Shown here one piece after another: positions 5,995 through 13,506 of a stretch of DNA of 62,414 nt (position 1 is the first letter of the stretch; every line of letters starts with the position of its first letter). Origin of the DNA: Clostridia bacterium (GTDB lineage Bacteria; Bacillota; Clostridia; Oscillospirales; Acutalibacteraceae); NCBI GenBank assembly GCA_017516315.1, contig JAFXDE010000010.1, positions 1 to 62,414 on the forward strand, in the 5' to 3' direction. Under the pieces are notes generated by a model. It made no database searches. It was not told the origin of the DNA and saw only the letters and a list, made by a program, of their open reading frames with translations. The translations under genes and the position numbers were made by a program.

Positions 5995-6054
5995 ATAAAG
6001 AAAATATTATTATGTGTTTTTATGTTTCTTTTTTAGTGAAAAGGAGTGGTACAA

Positions 6055-6960
6055 ATGAAACATTTACTTAAATTGCTCGACTGGTCAAAGGAGGAAATCC
6101 TCGACACACTCGATCTGGCTGACAAGCTCAAGGCAGAGAAGAAGGCAGGGATAAAGCATCCTCTTCTCGAAGGCAAAACCCTCGGTATGATTTTCCAGAA
6201 ATCATCTACCAGAACGAGAGTTTCCTTCGAGGTAGGTATGTATGACCTCGGCGGTACTCCTCTCTTCCTTTCCTCTAAGGATTTACAAATAGGCAGAGGT
6301 GAGCCTGTCCAGGATACAGCGAGAGTTCTTTCCCGTTTTCTCGACGGTATTATGATAAGAACCTTCGACCAGCAGGAGGTTGAGGACCTCGCAAAGTACG
6401 GCTCCATCCCCATAATAAACGGTCTTACGGATTTCTGCCATCCCTGTCAGGTTCTCGCTGACCTTCAGACTATCCGTGAATATAAAGGCTCTCTTGAGGG
6501 CAAAAAGCTTTGCTACATAGGTGACGGTAATAATATGGCAAACAGTCTTATCGTCGGCTGTCTTAAGGTAGGTATGAAGGTAGTTATTGCCTGTCCTAAG
6601 GGCTACGAGCCCGATGACGGTATAGTAGAATGGGCCAAGGAAAACGGTGAGCTTCTCGTTACCGAGGATATCCTCGAGGCCTGCAAGGGTGCAGATGTTC
6701 TTTACACAGATGTCTGGGCATCCATGGGTCAGGAAAGCGAAGCTGCAAAGAGACAGAGAATCTTTAAGAATTATCAGATTAATGACGAAGCAGTAAATGC
6801 CGCCAACGAGGGCGTAATGGTTCTTCACTGCCTTCCTGCTCACAGAGGCGAGGAAATTACCGATAAGGTTCTCGAAGAACATGCAGACCAGATTTTCGAC
6901 GAAGCTGAAAACAGACTCCACGCGCAGAAAGCAGTTCTTGTCAAGTGTTTTCTTGACTGA
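6055..6960 (+). CDS. argF: Ornithine carbamoyltransferase
   Basis: The enzyme condenses carbamoyl phosphate with ornithine to citrulline in arginine synthesis (or acts in reverse in catabolism). The 301-residue protein has the carbamoyl-phosphate motif STRTR (near residue 46), FCHPCQ (near residue 127) and the ornithine-site HCLPAHRGEE (near residue 260). Start ATG 6055 follows AAGGAG at 6041-6046 with good spacing; an in-frame GTG at 6046 overlaps that site and is rejected. It is followed by carA and carB in the same direction, so carbamoyl phosphate made by these subunits is likely channelled to citrulline. Confidence 0.95.
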   Translation: MKHLLKLLDWSKEEILDTLDLADKLKAEKKAGIKHPLLEGKTLGMIFQKSSTRTRVSFEVGMYDLGGTPLFLSSKDLQIGRGEPVQDTARVLSRFLDGIMIRTFDQQEVEDLAKYGSIPIINGLTDFCHPCQVLADLQTIREYKGSLEGKKLCYIGDGNNMANSLIVGCLKVGMKVVIACPKGYEPDDGIVEWAKENGELLVTEDILEACKGADVLYTDVWASMGQESEAAKRQRIFKNYQINDEAVNAANEGVMVLHCLPAHRGEEITDKVLEEHADQIFDEAENRLHAQKAVLVKCFLD

Positions 6961-7013: not shown

Positions 7014-8036
7014 ATGAAAAAGCGTTATTTGGTTTTACAGGACGGCACAGCTTTTGAGGGCTACGCCTTCGGTGCCGACGGTGAAAATATCGGTGAACTT
7101 GTTTTCACCACAAATATGGTCGGTTACATCGAAACCCTTACCGACCCCTGCTACTACGGTCAGATCGTTATGCAGACCTTCCCCATGGTAGGTAACTACG
7201 GTATTATCGAATCCGATTTTATCGGTCAGCCTAAGCTTCACGGCTATGTAGTAAGAGAATGGTGCGAGGCTCCCTCTAACTTCCGTTGTGAGTATGACCT
7301 TGACACCTTCCTTAAAAACAACGGTATCCCCGGAATTTACGGTGTTGACACCAGAGAAATTACAAACATCATCCGTGACGGCGGTACGGTTAATGCTAAA
7401 ATCTGCGACGAGCTTCCCGCTTCGACTGATGACATCAAGGAATATAAAATAATTTCTGCCGTAGAAAATACGGGAAGCAAAGAAAAGAGTGAGTTTGTAC
7501 CGACAGGGGAATACAAAAAGCATATCGCTATAGTAGACCTCGGCTCTACTAAGAATATGGAACAGGCTCTTATGGAAAAAGGCTGCAAGGTTACTCTTCT
7601 TCCCTACGATTTCAAAGCAGCAGAGGTAGAGGCTGACGGAGTTATTATCTCTGAGGGTCCCGGCTGTCCCAAGGCAAATTCAGCTATAATCGCTGAGGTC
7701 GGAGCGCTTATGGGCAGGCTTCCTGTTTTCGGTATCGGCCTCGGACATCAGCTTATGGCTCTTTCTCAGGGCGCTGACACAGAAAAGCTTCTCTACGGCC
7801 ATCACGGCTCAAATCAGCCCGTAAAAATCGTAGGCACTCCCCGTACTCTGATTACTACGCAGAATCACGGCTATGTGGTTAATAAGGACAGCGTAAAGGA
7901 AGGCGTTATCTCTCACCTTAACGGCAACGACGGTACGGTAGAGGGTATCGAATACAAAGATAAGAAAGCATTCTCAGTACAGTTCGAGCCCGATGATGCA
8001 CTTATCGAAAAATTCTTAAAGATGATGGAGGAGTAA
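7014..8036 (+). CDS. carA: Carbamoyl-phosphate synthase small subunit, glutaminase triad lost
   Basis: CarA normally hydrolyses glutamine and passes ammonia to CarB. The 340-residue protein keeps the CarA N-terminal domain (VGYIETLTDP, GQIV, VDTREIT) and the class I amidotransferase fold. The catalytic residues are changed: the nucleophile loop GICLGHQ reads GIGLGHQ, putting Gly at 242 in place of Cys, and the C-terminal QxHPE motif reads QFEPD (323-327), replacing both His and Glu. The usual SNGPGDP loop reads SEGPGCP. The protein ends about 15 residues earlier than usual. It should be unable to use glutamine by the known mechanism. Four bases separate it from carB. Confidence 0.9.
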   Translation: MKKRYLVLQDGTAFEGYAFGADGENIGELVFTTNMVGYIETLTDPCYYGQIVMQTFPMVGNYGIIESDFIGQPKLHGYVVREWCEAPSNFRCEYDLDTFLKNNGIPGIYGVDTREITNIIRDGGTVNAKICDELPASTDDIKEYKIISAVENTGSKEKSEFVPTGEYKKHIAIVDLGSTKNMEQALMEKGCKVTLLPYDFKAAEVEADGVIISEGPGCPKANSAIIAEVGALMGRLPVFGIGLGHQLMALSQGADTEKLLYGHHGSNQPVKIVGTPRTLITTQNHGYVVNKDSVKEGVISHLNGNDGTVEGIEYKDKKAFSVQFEPDDALIEKFLKMMEE

Positions 8037-8039
8037 GAG

Positions 8040-11000
8040 ATGCCACTTAATAAAGATATTAAAAAGGTTCTTGTTATAGGTTCAGGCCCTATCGTTATCG
8101 GACAGGCTGCCGAGTTTGACTATGCAGGCGCACAGGCTTGCCGTGTTCTTAAGCAGGCAGGCGTAAATGTAGTTCTCGTTAACTCTAACCCCGCTACCAT
8201 TATGACAGATAAGGCTCTTGCAGATGAAATTTATCTCGAGCCTCTTACCGCAGAAACAGTAAAGAGAATCATCAAGCTCGAAAAGCCCGACTCACTTTTA
8301 GCAGGTCTCGGCGGCCAGGTAGGTCTTACCCTTGCTATGCAGCTTTCAAAGGAGGGCTTCCTCCAGGCTAACGGTGTTAAGCTTATCGGTACTGATGTAG
8401 AAGCTATAGATAAGGCTGAGGACAGACAGCTCTTCAGAGATACTATGCAGTCCATCAATCAGCCCTGCATTCCTTCGGATATTTCAAATGACATCGAGAC
8501 CTCACTCGAAATCGCAAAGAGAATCGGTTATCCTGTAATTGTACGTCCTGCCTTCACCCTCGGCGGTGCAGGCGGCGGTGTGGCTTATAATGAGGACGAG
8601 CTTCGCATTATCGCCAAAACAGGTCTCGACGCTTCTCCCATTACACAGATTCTCGTAGAAAGATACATAAAAGGCTGGAAGGAAATCGAGTTTGAAACTA
8701 TGCGTGACAGCGCAGGTAACGCTATCGCCATCTGCTCGATGGAAAACTTCGACCCTGTCGGCGTTCATACAGGTGACAGTATCGTTGTCGCTCCCGCACT
8801 TTCTCTTTCCACCAAGGAATACAATATGCTCCGTCAGGCTTCACTTGACATCGTTTCCGCCCTTAAAATCGTAGGCGGCTGTAACTGTCAGTTTGCTCTC
8901 AATCCCGAATCCTTTGAGTATGCTGTTATCGAGGTTAATCCCCGTGTTTCCCGTTCTTCAGCTCTCGCTTCTAAGGCTTCCGGTTATCCCATCGCAAAGA
9001 TGACAACCAAGCTTGCTCTCGGCTATAATCTCGACGAAATCGTAAACGACATCACAGGTAAGACCTGCGCATGCTTCGAGCCCTCACTTGACTATGTAGT
9101 ATGTAAGTTCCCCAAATGGCCCTTCGATAAGTTCCTCGGCTCATCCAGAAAGCTCGGTACACAGATGAAGGCCACAGGTGAGGTTATGTCCATCGGTCAG
9201 TCCTTCGAGGAGGCTATTATGAAGGCTGTCAGAGGTGCTGAAATCTCTCTCGACACTCTTAATGCCGCTCCCCTCAGCGATCTTCCTCTTCTCGAAAGAC
9301 TCGACATCGCAGATGACAGAAGAATCTTCACCGTGTTTGAGGCCATCAAGGCAGGTATATCTGACGAAAAGATTCACGAAATAACCGCTATAGATAAATG
9401 GTTTATTTCTAAGCTCCGAAATCTCGCTAACTTCGAAAATGAAATCGAGGGTAAGGAAATTACCGAGGAGCAGTACCTCAGAGCTAAAAAGCTCGGCTAC
9501 ACTGATAAATCTCTCCGTAAGTTCTGTACCTTCCCCGAAGAATTCCACAGAGAAGCAAGCTACAAGATGGTTGACACCTGCGCAGCAGAGTTCAGCGCAA
9601 CCACACCTTATTTCTATTCTTCTTACGATAAGGCCTGCGAATCCAGACGTTATCAGCGTTCGGGCAAGGATGTAGTTATGGTTCTCGGCTCAGGTCCCAT
9701 CAGAATCGGTCAGGGTATCGAATTCGACTACTCCTCCGTTCACTGTGTATGGACACTTAAGGAGCTCGGCTACGATGTTGTTATCGTAAATAATAACCCC
9801 GAAACCGTCTCTACAGACTACGATACAGCTGACAGACTTTACTTCGAGCCTCTCAACGAGGAAGACGTAATGAACATCATCAAGGTTGAAAAGCCTATCG
9901 GTGTCGTTGTTGCCTTCGGCGGTCAGACAGCCATCAAGCTTACCAAATTCCTTGACGATAACGGAATTAAGATTCTCGGCACATCACAGCAGGGTATCGA
10001 CACGGCTGAGGACAGAGAAAAGTTCGATGCTCTTCTCGAAAAGTACGGCTTTATGCGTCCTGCAGGCTGCGGTGTTATGACCTTAGAGGAAGCACTCGAG
10101 GCTGCCAACAGACTTACATATCCCGTACTTCTCAGACCCTCCTATGTTATCGGCGGTCAGAATATGATGATCGTTCATAACGATGTTGAGGTAGAGAGAT
10201 ATATGAAGAAGATTCTTTCTACCGGTATCGAAAATCCTGTTCTTGTGGATAAATATATGAGTGGTACGGAAATAGAGGTAGATGTAATTTCCGACGGTAA
10301 GGATGTTCTTATTCCCGGTATTATGCAGCACGTAGAGCGTGCGGGTGTCCACTCAGGCGACTCCATCGCTGTTTATCCTCCCTTCTCGCTTACGGACAAG
10401 ATGACACAGACAGTTGTAGACTGCTCCGAAAAGCTCGCTCTTGCTCTCGGTACAAAGGGTCTGGTTAACATACAGTATCTCATTTATGAAAATCAGCTTT
10501 ATGTTATCGAGGTTAATCCCAGAGCCTCCAGAACCATTCCTTACATCAGTAAGGTTACAAATGTTCCTATGGTTGACCTTGCCACCAAGGTTATGACAGG
10601 CTCTGCACTTAAAGACTTAGGCTACGGCACAGGTCTTTACGAGGCACCTCCTTACTTTGCAGTAAAAGCGCCCGTATTCTCCTTCGAAAAGCTCAACGAT
10701 GTAAACAGCTATCTCGGACCCGAAATGAAGTCCACGGGTGAGGTTTTAGGTATCGGCAAAACCCTTAACGAGGCTCTGTTCAAGGGCCTTACCTCCTCGG
10801 GTATAAAGGTAAACGCCAAAAGTGATAAGAGCGAAATGGGTGTGCTTCTCAGCGTGGATGAGCATGACCTTGACGAAATAGTTTCTATCGCTAAAAAGCT
10901 TCAGGATCTCGGCATCAACATCTATGCGGCCAAGGATACAGCGAGAGCTATCGTAAACCTCGGCATCAATGTAACCTATGTAAAGGGCATCAGAGAAAGT

Positions 11001-12074
11001 GACTATTGCTTCAAGCTTCTCGAAAGCGGTAAGATTGACTTCATCGTTTACACAGGCGCACTCTTCGATGCTACTATGGACAACTATATCGCACTTCACA
11101 GAAAGGCTCTTCAGCTCGGCATCGCTTGCTTTACCTCTCTGGACACAGCTAATGCTATGCTCGACATTATGGCAAGTAACTACACTCAGCAGAACACAGA
11201 GCTTATCGACATAAACAGCATGAGAACGAGCAGAAAAATCTTTAAGTTCTCAAAGATGCACGGTACCGGTAATGACTACATCTTTATCGATAACCGTGAC
11301 GGACAGATTACCTGCCCCGAATCACTCTGTATCAATTTCTGTGAAAGACATTACGGTATCGGCGGTTACGGCTTTATCCTTATCGAAAATTCCGATGTAG
11401 CCGATGCTAAGATGCGAGTGTTCAACCGTGACGGCAGTGAAGGCTCTATGGCAGGTAATGCTATACGCTGTGTAGGTAAGTATCTTTACGATAAGGGTAT
11501 CGTAAACAAAGAGGAAATCACCGTCGAAACAGGTGCAGGAATCAAGGAGCTTAAGCTCTATATCTCCAATAAGCGTGTAACAGCTGTTCAGGTTTATATG
11601 GGCAAGCCCACCTTTGACTGTGCATCTATTCCCTGTACTCTCGACGAGGAGGATATTATTGATTATCCTATCACTATCGGTGCAAGCAGCTATAATATTA
11701 CCTGTCTTAACATCGGTAATCCTCACTGTGTAGTATTTGACAAAAATGTAGACGGACTCGACCTTCAGAAAATAGGTCCCTCCTTCGAAAAGGCTGACAT
11801 CTTCCCCGAAAGAATCAATACCGAATTCGTCAGAGTTGTTAACTCACATACTCTTAAGATGAGAGCTTACGAAAGAGGTAACGGTGAGACCTTTGCCTGC
11901 GGTACAGGTGCATGCGCCGCAGTGGTAGCCGCTGTAGAGAACGGCTTCTGTAAAAAAGGCGAGGAGATAACCGTCAAGCTTAAGGGCGGTGACCTTGCCG
12001 TAACCTATAACGACGACGGAATCTTCCTTACAGGTAACGCTGTTCTCGTATTTGAAGGCGAAGCTGAATATTAA
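8040..12074 (+). CDS. carB-dapF: Carbamoyl-phosphate synthase large subunit fused to DapF-like domain
   Basis: This 1344-residue protein is an in-frame fusion. Residues 1 to about 1060 form a complete CarB: two ATP-grasp halves starting at KKVLVIGSGPIVIGQ and, near residue 548, VMVLGSGPIRIGQ, then the MGS-like allosteric domain. Residues about 1066-1344 are a full-length diaminopimelate epimerase fold (KMHGTGNDY, NRDGSEG, ERGNGETFACGTGACA). In the DapF part, Cys1287 is kept, but the other catalytic base position (MCGN in the family) is Ala1138 (MAGN). An internal ATG at 11220 marks a plausible ancestral dapF start but has no ribosome binding site, so the fused protein is the likely product. 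Confidence 0.92.
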   Translation: MPLNKDIKKVLVIGSGPIVIGQAAEFDYAGAQACRVLKQAGVNVVLVNSNPATIMTDKALADEIYLEPLTAETVKRIIKLEKPDSLLAGLGGQVGLTLAMQLSKEGFLQANGVKLIGTDVEAIDKAEDRQLFRDTMQSINQPCIPSDISNDIETSLEIAKRIGYPVIVRPAFTLGGAGGGVAYNEDELRIIAKTGLDASPITQILVERYIKGWKEIEFETMRDSAGNAIAICSMENFDPVGVHTGDSIVVAPALSLSTKEYNMLRQASLDIVSALKIVGGCNCQFALNPESFEYAVIEVNPRVSRSSALASKASGYPIAKMTTKLALGYNLDEIVNDITGKTCACFEPSLDYVVCKFPKWPFDKFLGSSRKLGTQMKATGEVMSIGQSFEEAIMKAVRGAEISLDTLNAAPLSDLPLLERLDIADDRRIFTVFEAIKAGISDEKIHEITAIDKWFISKLRNLANFENEIEGKEITEEQYLRAKKLGYTDKSLRKFCTFPEEFHREASYKMVDTCAAEFSATTPYFYSSYDKACESRRYQRSGKDVVMVLGSGPIRIGQGIEFDYSSVHCVWTLKELGYDVVIVNNNPETVSTDYDTADRLYFEPLNEEDVMNIIKVEKPIGVVVAFGGQTAIKLTKFLDDNGIKILGTSQQGIDTAEDREKFDALLEKYGFMRPAGCGVMTLEEALEAANRLTYPVLLRPSYVIGGQNMMIVHNDVEVERYMKKILSTGIENPVLVDKYMSGTEIEVDVISDGKDVLIPGIMQHVERAGVHSGDSIAVYPPFSLTDKMTQTVVDCSEKLALALGTKGLVNIQYLIYENQLYVIEVNPRASRTIPYISKVTNVPMVDLATKVMTGSALKDLGYGTGLYEAPPYFAVKAPVFSFEKLNDVNSYLGPEMKSTGEVLGIGKTLNEALFKGLTSSGIKVNAKSDKSEMGVLLSVDEHDLDEIVSIAKKLQDLGINIYAAKDTARAIVNLGINVTYVKGIRESDYCFKLLESGKIDFIVYTGALFDATMDNYIALHRKALQLGIACFTSLDTANAMLDIMASNYTQQNTELIDINSMRTSRKIFKFSKMHGTGNDYIFIDNRDGQITCPESLCINFCERHYGIGGYGFILIENSDVADAKMRVFNRDGSEGSMAGNAIRCVGKYLYDKGIVNKEEITVETGAGIKELKLYISNKRVTAVQVYMGKPTFDCASIPCTLDEEDIIDYPITIGASSYNITCLNIGNPHCVVFDKNVDGLDLQKIGPSFEKADIFPERINTEFVRVVNSHTLKMRAYERGNGETFACGTGACAAVVAAVENGFCKKGEEITVKLKGGDLAVTYNDDGIFLTGNAVLVFEGEAEY

Positions 12075-12116: not shown

Positions 12117-12138
12117 ATGAATTTTGGAGGTAAAACCT

Positions 12139-13506
12139 TTGGCAAAGACTGATAAAACCTATCTTTTCGAAAATAAATCCATACCTGCGGCGGTGGCATC
12201 CCTGGCACTCCCGACCGTTATGAGCTCCCTTGTAATGATTATATATAATCTCGCCGATACATATTTTATAGGTATGCTGGATAACCCTGTACAAAATGCA
12301 GCGGTAACTCTTTCTGCACCTGTTTTACTCGCTTTTAATGCGGTTAATAATCTCTTCGGTGTAGGCGGCTCGAGTATGATGAGCAGAGCTTTGGGCAGAA
12401 AGGATTATAAAACCGTAAGGGAAAGCTCAGCCTTTTCCTTTTACGGAGCACTTATTTGCAGTGCGTTCTTTTCGCTTCTTTTTATCTTTTTCGGCAAAAG
12501 CATCCTTATGCTTCTCGGTGCTGACGGAGAAACGATTGCTCCTACTATGACATACATAAAATGGACAGTAGTTTTCGGAGCTGTTCCCGCTATTTTGCAG
12601 ACCACTATGGCGTATATCGTGCGCTCTGAGGGATATGCGGCTTTTGCGTCGGTAGGAACAATCAGCGGATGTCTGCTGAATATTATTCTTGACCCTGTTT
12701 TTGCTCTTCCCTTCGGTCTCGGTATGGAAGTAGAGGGTGTGGCACTCGCTACCTTTATTTCCAACTGTGTTTCCTGTATATATTTCCTTGTGCTGATAAT
12801 TTTTATTCTTCGAAAGAAAACCTCTATCAGCATAAATCCGAAGGATTTTCATATAAGAAAGCCTATCGTAACCGGTATCTTTACAGTAGGTTTTTCCGCT
12901 TGCATACAGAATCTTCTTAATGTTACGGGTATGACCATTCTTACTAATTCTGTGTCTGCCTTCGGTACTACTGCTATTGCAGCTATGGGTATCGTGCAAA
13001 AAATTACCCAGGTTCCTCTGTTTGTTTTCCTCGGAGTCTCTCAGGGTGTGGCGCCGCTTATCGCTTATAACTACGCGTCTAAAAATTACGGAAGAATGAA
13101 GCGAACGGTAACCTTTACGGGTAGTCTTATTACCTCTCTCGCTTTCTTGGCTGTAGCCGTTCTTTTCTTCGGAGGAGAGGGAATAATAACGCTCTTTATG
13201 AAAAATGTAGAGGTTGTCATCTGCGGTACGGGTCTTATCAAGGGTTTTTGTATGGCTCTTCCCTTCCTTTGTCTTGATTTCCTTGCCGTAGGTGTATTCC
13301 AATCTCTCGGCAACGGTAAAAACGCTATGATTTTTGCCGTAACACGAAAAATTCTTCTTGAGATACCGGCACTTATTATTCTCAACAGACTATTCCCGCT
13401 TTACGGACTTGCCTGGGCACAGTTCTGCGCTGAGCTTGTTCTGAGTATAGCAGCGGTTATTGTTCTGAGAAATATTTTCAGAAGGCTTGAAAGGGAGGAA
13501 GCATAA
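12139..13506 (+). CDS. MATE family multidrug exporter
   Basis: The 455-residue membrane protein matches MATE exporters (NorM/DinF type), which expel cationic drugs using Na+ or H+ gradients. Twelve hydrophobic segments form two homologous halves; the first begins ALPTVMSSLVMIIYNLADTYF, characteristic of MATE helix 1. Start TTG 12139 is chosen because GGAGG at 12126-12130 lies 8 bases upstream; the in-frame TTG at 12124 overlaps that site. The stop overlaps the ATG of the MFS gene by one base, so the two transporters are co-expressed. Substrate unknown. Confidence 0.9.
   Translation: MAKTDKTYLFENKSIPAAVASLALPTVMSSLVMIIYNLADTYFIGMLDNPVQNAAVTLSAPVLLAFNAVNNLFGVGGSSMMSRALGRKDYKTVRESSAFSFYGALICSAFFSLLFIFFGKSILMLLGADGETIAPTMTYIKWTVVFGAVPAILQTTMAYIVRSEGYAAFASVGTISGCLLNIILDPVFALPFGLGMEVEGVALATFISNCVSCIYFLVLIIFILRKKTSISINPKDFHIRKPIVTGIFTVGFSACIQNLLNVTGMTILTNSVSAFGTTAIAAMGIVQKITQVPLFVFLGVSQGVAPLIAYNYASKNYGRMKRTVTFTGSLITSLAFLAVAVLFFGGEGIITLFMKNVEVVICGTGLIKGFCMALPFLCLDFLAVGVFQSLGNGKNAMIFAVTRKILLEIPALIILNRLFPLYGLAWAQFCAELVLSIAAVIVLRNIFRRLEREEA

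Follow-up and report, generated by a model that had tools for sequence, protein, structure and literature searches.

What is a domain of the diaminopimelate (DAP) epimerase DapF doing at the end of a carbamoyl phosphate synthetase (CPS)? The question is raised by one gene in the window analysed here, the whole 62,414-nucleotide stretch of a Clostridia bacterium (contig JAFXDE010000010.1), in which the large CPS subunit CarB runs in frame into a DapF-type domain. CarB is an enzyme of early arginine and pyrimidine synthesis, and DapF one of cell-wall and lysine synthesis. The fusion is very likely real, and the DapF domain of the window has, to judge from its catalytic residues, in all probability ceased to be an epimerase. 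We give an even chance to the reading that the epimerase has been retired and now serves an arginine-operon CPS as an accessory domain that binds amino acids. The parts of the gene are as follows.

8040..12074, + strand: carB-dapF fusion gene, ATG start, 1344 amino acids (open reading frame list, Pfam, NCBIfam)
8040..11225, + strand: complete CarB part, residues 1-1062 (NCBIfam, E. coli alignment, tail motif)
10875..11135, + strand: MGS allosteric domain (Pfam MGS, 946-1032)
11199..11225, + strand: junction, the native CarB C-terminal motif ELIDINSMR, which contains the internal ATG at 11220
11235..12071, + strand: DapF-type domain, residues 1066-1344 (TIGR00652; PDB DapF sequences match down to 5e-65)
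11451..11453, + strand: codon for Ala1138, at the site of the first catalytic cysteine of DapF, Cys73 (E. coli DapF alignment)
11898..11900, + strand: codon for Cys1287, the retained second catalytic cysteine of DapF, Cys217 (E. coli DapF alignment)

The initial annotation had described one 1344-codon frame holding a whole CarB and a DapF-type domain from about residue 1066, and NCBIfam and Pfam agree with it. The frame has no internal stop; CarB models cover residues 1-1048 (NF003671, 1418 bits; TIGR01369, 1383 bits against a cut-off of 1027), and the DapF model TIGR00652 covers residues 1069-1342 with 286.5 bits in NCBIfam against a cut-off of 114.65 (291.5 bits were also obtained). Pfam finds two ATP-grasp halves, the oligomerisation domain, MGS and two DAP_epimerase stretches. 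Both its TIGR01369 score and its two ATP-grasp active sites place the first part in CarB, 25 of 30 ATP-grasp site residues, selected by us, being identical to those of E. coli (208, 210, 242, 754 and 756 differ). A strong ribosome-binding site, GGAGGAG, lies 5′ of the carB start and, as had been noted, none precedes the ATG at 11220. This ATG was rejected as an internal or cryptic dapF start, since it sits inside the C-terminal tail of CarB; the unfused CarB of a relative (L168) ends in the same motif (...VDINTIR). Only three residues separate this tail from the DapF start (KIFKFSKMHG, residue 1066, position 11235). An assembly error or a frameshift was rejected too, as independent metagenome-assembled genomes (MAGs) share the fused frame and fused frames occur in the order-wide survey. 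In three other MAGs (L033, L034 and L035) the DapF part of the fused gene is 96% identical to that of the window.

The same two-domain architecture, which the initial annotation proposed to look for in Oscillospirales, is widespread there, and the alternative that all relatives have separate genes does not hold. Junction-spanning fused open frames were found in 62 of 127 genomes of the order, about half, by our own tally of rows in which the junction query started at or before 17 and ended at 133 without a stop, and in 32 of 196 genomes of the class, some clipped by contig ends. Within the genus, the window's genome included, the fusion is present in 28 of 34 genomes (protein search of 59 genomes, by our reading of the rows), a tally that includes genes clipped by contig ends, as in G011 and G015. 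The named carriers are mainly uncultured Clostridia or Oscillospiraceae, many from the ruminant gut. No report of a CarB-DapF fusion or of a dead DapF was present in the open-access literature searched; subscription papers and domain databases, outside that scope, may list the architecture.

Alignment of the window's domain to E. coli DapF revealed alanine at position 73 (MAGNA for MCGNG) and an intact Cys217. These two cysteines are the catalytic residues of DapF named in the available portion of PMC3581254. The domain belongs to DapF by its TIGR00652 score and by its DAP-contact residues, all of those checked being present in 17 of 17 focal sequences, but not by its catalytic cysteines; the domain, called complete at the outset, is full-length but catalytically incomplete. 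Among 88 distinct fused domains, four carry both cysteines, one carries Cys73 with Ser217 and 83 lack Cys73, whereas all 40 standalone domains carry both and none is Cys73-less. This tally, reduced from 162 to 128 rows, omits the truncated L063, L069 and L078, the fragments L113-L124, the E. coli sequence L166 and near-copies.

The rest of the pocket has been kept. All 17 sequences of the focal clade share N11, N64, N157, N190, E208 and R209, together with G74, N75, C217, G218 and T219. Residues 74, 75, 218 and 219 are presumably helix-start residues. By our renumbering, the first six of the invariant residues correspond to the DAP contacts Asn13, Asn66, Asn164, Asn197, Glu215 and Arg216 given for Anabaena DapF in the part of PMC12039745 available. 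Across 73 genomes with A, G, S, F or T in place of Cys73, the whole ten-site string is intact in 64 and Cys217 in 71; counted by domain, Cys217 is retained in 79 of 82 Cys73-less fused domains. Besides Cys73, the standalone-conserved sites kept in fewer than a quarter of focal rows are Thr4, Tyr15, Ser34, Asp43, Pro50, Val153, Trp207 and Met260, with tyrosine replacing both Asp43 and Trp207 in the focal clade. As Asp43 and Trp207 adjoin residue 44 and Glu208, the reaction-centre side may have been reshaped while the distal amino-acid pocket stayed. Five fused genomes of one genus (L245, L248, L249, L251 and L252) have phenylalanine at the Cys73 position (MFGN) with the ten other pocket sites intact. 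Asn11, the proximal amine contact, is aspartate in 19 of 82 Cys73-less fused domains (L043, L044 and L050, for example), which may indicate a changed ligand.

Does the organism need an epimerase? The window's genome, 82% complete, yielded no separate dapF, its single PF01678 protein being the fused one, and no LL-DAP aminotransferase (DapL) above the cut-off, the succinylase-branch genes dapD and dapE not having been sought. The meso-DAP dehydrogenase Ddh is present. With Ddh and no DapL above the cut-off, an epimerase should be dispensable, if Ddh works, and DAP epimerase as a pathway partner is disfavoured for this genome. Across 88 of 89 fused genomes (the truncated G086 was left out, and G015, with its fused gene in fragments, was not entered), both cysteines are kept in nine of the 11 genomes that have DapL and the fused domain as the only DapF found, and in four of the 77 others (G056, G096, G123 and G132), with a Fisher p of 6e-8 that ignores kinship. 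The two genomes lacking the pair despite an apparent need are G063 and G156, the latter 83% complete.

By genomic context, the fusion has two forms. We surveyed 115 loci, reduced to 97 distinct full-length fused frames, with arginine neighbours counted within 6 kb and neighbour names verified by NCBIfam on representatives (the argJ-like representative scored under its cut-off). An arginine context (argF, argD or argJ-like) was found at 59 of the 97 loci; all 59 lack Cys73, all 59 lack Arg1020 of the MGS domain, and Lys993 is present in four. Nine loci lie in a dapL/pyrG/guaA/nadE context; eight of them have both cysteines and all nine have Lys993 and Arg1020. In the remaining 29, several clipped by contig ends, 22 lack Cys73, six have both cysteines and one has Cys73 with Ser217. 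Each of the 14 loci, out of 97, that keep the cysteine pair also has Lys993 and Arg1020, and Lys954, Lys993 and Arg1020 occur together in eight of 82 Cys73-less loci. The window has the arginine-context form, without the full pair of DapF cysteines that would mark a bifunctional fusion. The initial annotation saw no obvious pathway logic in joining the two enzymes, a view countered by the eight both-cysteine fused loci that adjoin dapL, pyrG, guaA or nadE (among them L061, L126, L264 and L273) and by six loci with unfused carB and dapF in the same frame, where dapL stands beside dapF in six of six. Standalone dapF also frequently adjoins dapL. The neighbours in the window are these.

6046..6960, + strand: argF, ornithine carbamoyltransferase, the upstream neighbour that marks the arginine context (TIGR00658, 428 bits, cut-off 281)
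7014..8036, + strand: carA, CPS small subunit, glutaminase triad gone (NF009475/TIGR01368 over cut-off; alignment to E. coli K-12 CarA)
7737..7739, + strand: codon for Gly, residue 242, at the position of the CarA nucleophile
12124-13506: MATE-family transporter gene, immediately 3′ of the fusion gene, just over the TIGR00797 cut-off

Elsewhere, a cysteine-desulfurase-like gene and thiI lie 3′ of the fused gene in many loci (L065, L075 and L084, for example), in part of which the DapF pocket is degraded.

In the MGS domain (E. coli numbering), Lys954, Lys993 and Arg1020 are replaced by Leu, Gly and Asp; we take Lys954 and Arg1020 to be nucleotide-regulation positions. By these residues the window's CarB does not qualify as nucleotide-regulated. 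Lys993 is named for nucleotide regulation of CarB, together with Thr977, in the portion of PMC6245113 available. The CarB ornithine site, position 892, was uninformative, being Ala, Val, Met or Phe in the non-E. coli rows that reach it, fused or not. The genome has one CarB and one CarA, and in the latter the triad Cys269, His353 and Glu355 reads Gly, Glu and Asp, so that the Cys-His-Glu signature of a glutamine-dependent CPS is missing though TIGR01368 scores over its cut-off. E. coli CarA without Cys269 loses glutamine use and retains ammonia use, and with the triad lost the window's CPS is likely ammonia-dependent. CarA could be scored for 66 of the 76 fused rows of the CarB tree described below; the nucleophile cysteine is absent in 25, through at least eight changes, a pattern suggesting that gut Clostridia have switched repeatedly to an ammonia-dependent CPS. 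A link between loss of Cys73 and loss of the CarA glutaminase was not tight: among fused CarB-tree rows with both scored, Cys73-less domains accompany 27 live and 21 dead CarA, and Cys73-bearing ones four live and one dead, a further 13 rows having no cysteine state. A CarA match was absent in 11 of 59 relatives, some of whose genomes are incomplete. Six genomes of the same genus, 81-98% complete (G007, G026, G027, G029, G031 and G033), had no CarA match, and four of these have CarB. At L181 (genome G010), pyrK- and pyrD-type genes come after carB, and the sole CarA match of that genome lies on another contig.

Analysis of substitution rates revealed strong purifying selection on the DapF part in the window's clade. 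Between the window and L033, omega (Nei-Gojobori) is 0.030 for the DapF part and 0.014 for the CarB part. Over 24 focal-clade pairs, kept from 55 after pairs with saturated synonymous sites had been dropped, the medians are 0.095 (0.03-0.14 per pair) and 0.076, against 0.15 for standalone dapF of the genus (29 kept pairs). Such low values indicate that the domain is not decaying in the window's clade; elsewhere it is under looser constraint, yet well under neutral.

Both trees indicate that the fusion probably arose once. In the careful DapF tree (112 of 129 rows; 14 Bacilli, L090, L160 and E. coli left out), 87 fused domains form one clade (81/70; 84% of bootstraps), the nearest standalone domain being L143 and the first-branching fused one L061, which has both cysteines and lies beside pyrG and dapL. 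The position of the 14 Bacilli inside the fusion clade of a first DapF tree, on a branch of 3.28, was judged to be long-branch attraction. In the quick CarB tree, which carries a long-branch warning that includes L158, a single 100% branch unites the 76 fused rows and also contains three that were scored as unfused: L076, whose frame is broken, and L158 and L176, which have no DapF domain. The six same-frame carB-stop-dapF pairs likely picture the state before fusion: the gap is 3-5 codons in L152, L257, L258, L259 and L260, and 21 codons with an additional in-frame stop in L148. As L148 and L152 fall in other clades of both trees (L257-L260 are in no tree), the six loci illustrate the fusion step and not its ancestor.

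From these data we propose that, in Clostridia, carB was joined to the dapF directly behind it, probably in a single event, and that the original fusion was probably an ordinary bifunctional protein, an active enzyme yielding carbamoyl phosphate and meso-DAP. In the window's lineage the fusion gene would have come to stand in an arginine operon, in a host where meso-DAP dehydrogenase can supply DAP; the epimerase would then have been retired by losing the base Cys73, with Cys217 and the remaining substrate pocket kept. Our guess is that the intact distal pocket binds an L-amino acid, be it ornithine, arginine, lysine or DAP, that this binding tunes or stabilises the enzyme, and that the pocket takes over from the MGS nucleotide site, seemingly lost here. 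The fullest version, in which the former epimerase is an allosteric sensor of the arginine-operon CPS that responds to a diamino acid from either the arginine or the lysine/cell-wall pathway, bound in its old substrate pocket, replaces the nucleotide site and governs a glutaminase-dead CPS in ammonia-rich guts, is a tentative and rather doubtful extension.

Several observations weigh against an amino-acid-binding accessory domain. The nucleotide-site residue Thr977 is retained in the MGS domain. Other DapF-conserved sites are retained as well as the pocket (focal-clade median 100%), so a conserved pocket alone is no proof of binding, and Cys217 in 79 of 82 Cys73-less domains would exceed the demands of mere binding. 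A divergent clade of 13 has lost the pocket (Asn190 0/13, Arg209 1/13, Gly74 0/13) and retained the domain, for which a structural role fits better, and the nesting of the domainless L158 and L176 among fused rows argues that the domain is not indispensable. Another fused subclade within the window's genus has an omega of 0.213 for the DapF part and 0.136 for the CarB part (10 pairs), a weaker constraint than that on standalone dapF. The association of cysteines with need was not significant in an independent-pairs sign test, with 4-7 changes on the tree; G096 and G123 have both cysteines despite a standalone DapF, and G056 despite Ddh and without DapL.

A dead epimerase that merely stabilises or oligomerises CPS, sensing no ligand, would account for the degraded-pocket clade and for the near-absent linker, which may let the domains pack; DapF itself forms dimers. 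Fungal CPS offers a precedent, being fused to an 'active or inactive DHO' in the words of the passage available from PMC6022934. We consider such a scaffold unlikely, as the fully conserved polar pocket and Cys217 of the focal clade exceed what it needs. Cys217 could instead serve as the sole base of a new enzyme, deprotonating one face in an elimination or a one-way reaction. Its retention in the Cys73-less domains fits this idea, as do the glutamate racemases in the available part of PMC8142540, where chloroglutamate is eliminated by single Cys-to-Ser mutants, and where Thr replaces one Cys in a racemase that works one way. The scatter of A, G, S, F and T at position 73, however, suggests loss and not one new active site, and the neighbouring genes hint at no substrate, which makes a single-cysteine enzyme distinctly improbable. 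Of the structural, allosteric or new catalytic role that the initial annotation had offered, a non-epimerase role, structural or allosteric, is probable here, and new catalysis is not favoured.

That the domain is a functionless relic carried along by an essential enzyme would agree with the repeated changes of Cys73 state (4-6 on the trees), with the two lineages without the domain and with the omega of 0.213 in one subclade; focal values below the standalone median and a pocket invariant in 17 of 17 make it very improbable. Still less credence goes to the view that the domain, like its probably active Cys73-bearing sisters, is a working DAP epimerase, its second base being supplied by a different residue or by water. 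The domain is the only DapF-family match in the genome, scores as an equivalog in TIGR00652 and has intact DAP contacts where checked; but Cys73 is alanine, LL-DAP may not form with Ddh present and no DapL above the cut-off, and genomes that seem to require the epimerase retain both cysteines in nine of 11 cases. Our preference for a sensor over a scaffold or a new enzyme is held at about evens.

Compared with known systems, the domain resembles DapF (TIGR00652; PDB 2OTN, 9MRO and 1BWZ) in sequence family, checked DAP contacts and Cys217, and differs by Cys73 to Ala, its place behind CarB and a host that apparently needs no epimerase. The CarB part has the full domain order and nearly all the compared active-site residues of E. 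coli CarB, the large subunit of a glutamine-dependent CPS (TIGR01369), but adds a C-terminal domain, lacks Lys954, Lys993 and Arg1020 and has a CarA partner without the triad. The sister fusions L061, L126, L264 and L273 share the architecture, L061 and L126 within the same fusion clade; unlike the window, their catalytic cysteines are complete by sequence, they lie beside pyrG/nadE/dapL and they keep MGS Lys993 and Arg1020. Vertebrate CPS1 is ammonia-dependent and retains a glutaminase part without its catalytic cysteine; unlike the window's enzyme, it is a single chain, activated by N-acetylglutamate, with no DapF domain. The dihydroorotase domain of fungal CPS-aspartate transcarbamoylase is not homologous to the window's DapF domain and differs in fold, pathway and position. 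It is likewise a dead enzyme domain inside a CPS protein, according to the available passage of PMC6022934, which also names an ammonia-dependent CPS I.

The family models label these proteins as DapF and as glutamine-hydrolysing CPS though each misses a catalytic cysteine, an assignment that would lead metabolic models of gut bacteria astray. There are living examples of each stage, from adjacent genes through an active-looking fusion and a retired fusion to domain loss. The series traces the conversion of one enzyme into an integral domain of a second, and the proposed change from enzyme to sensor is directly testable.

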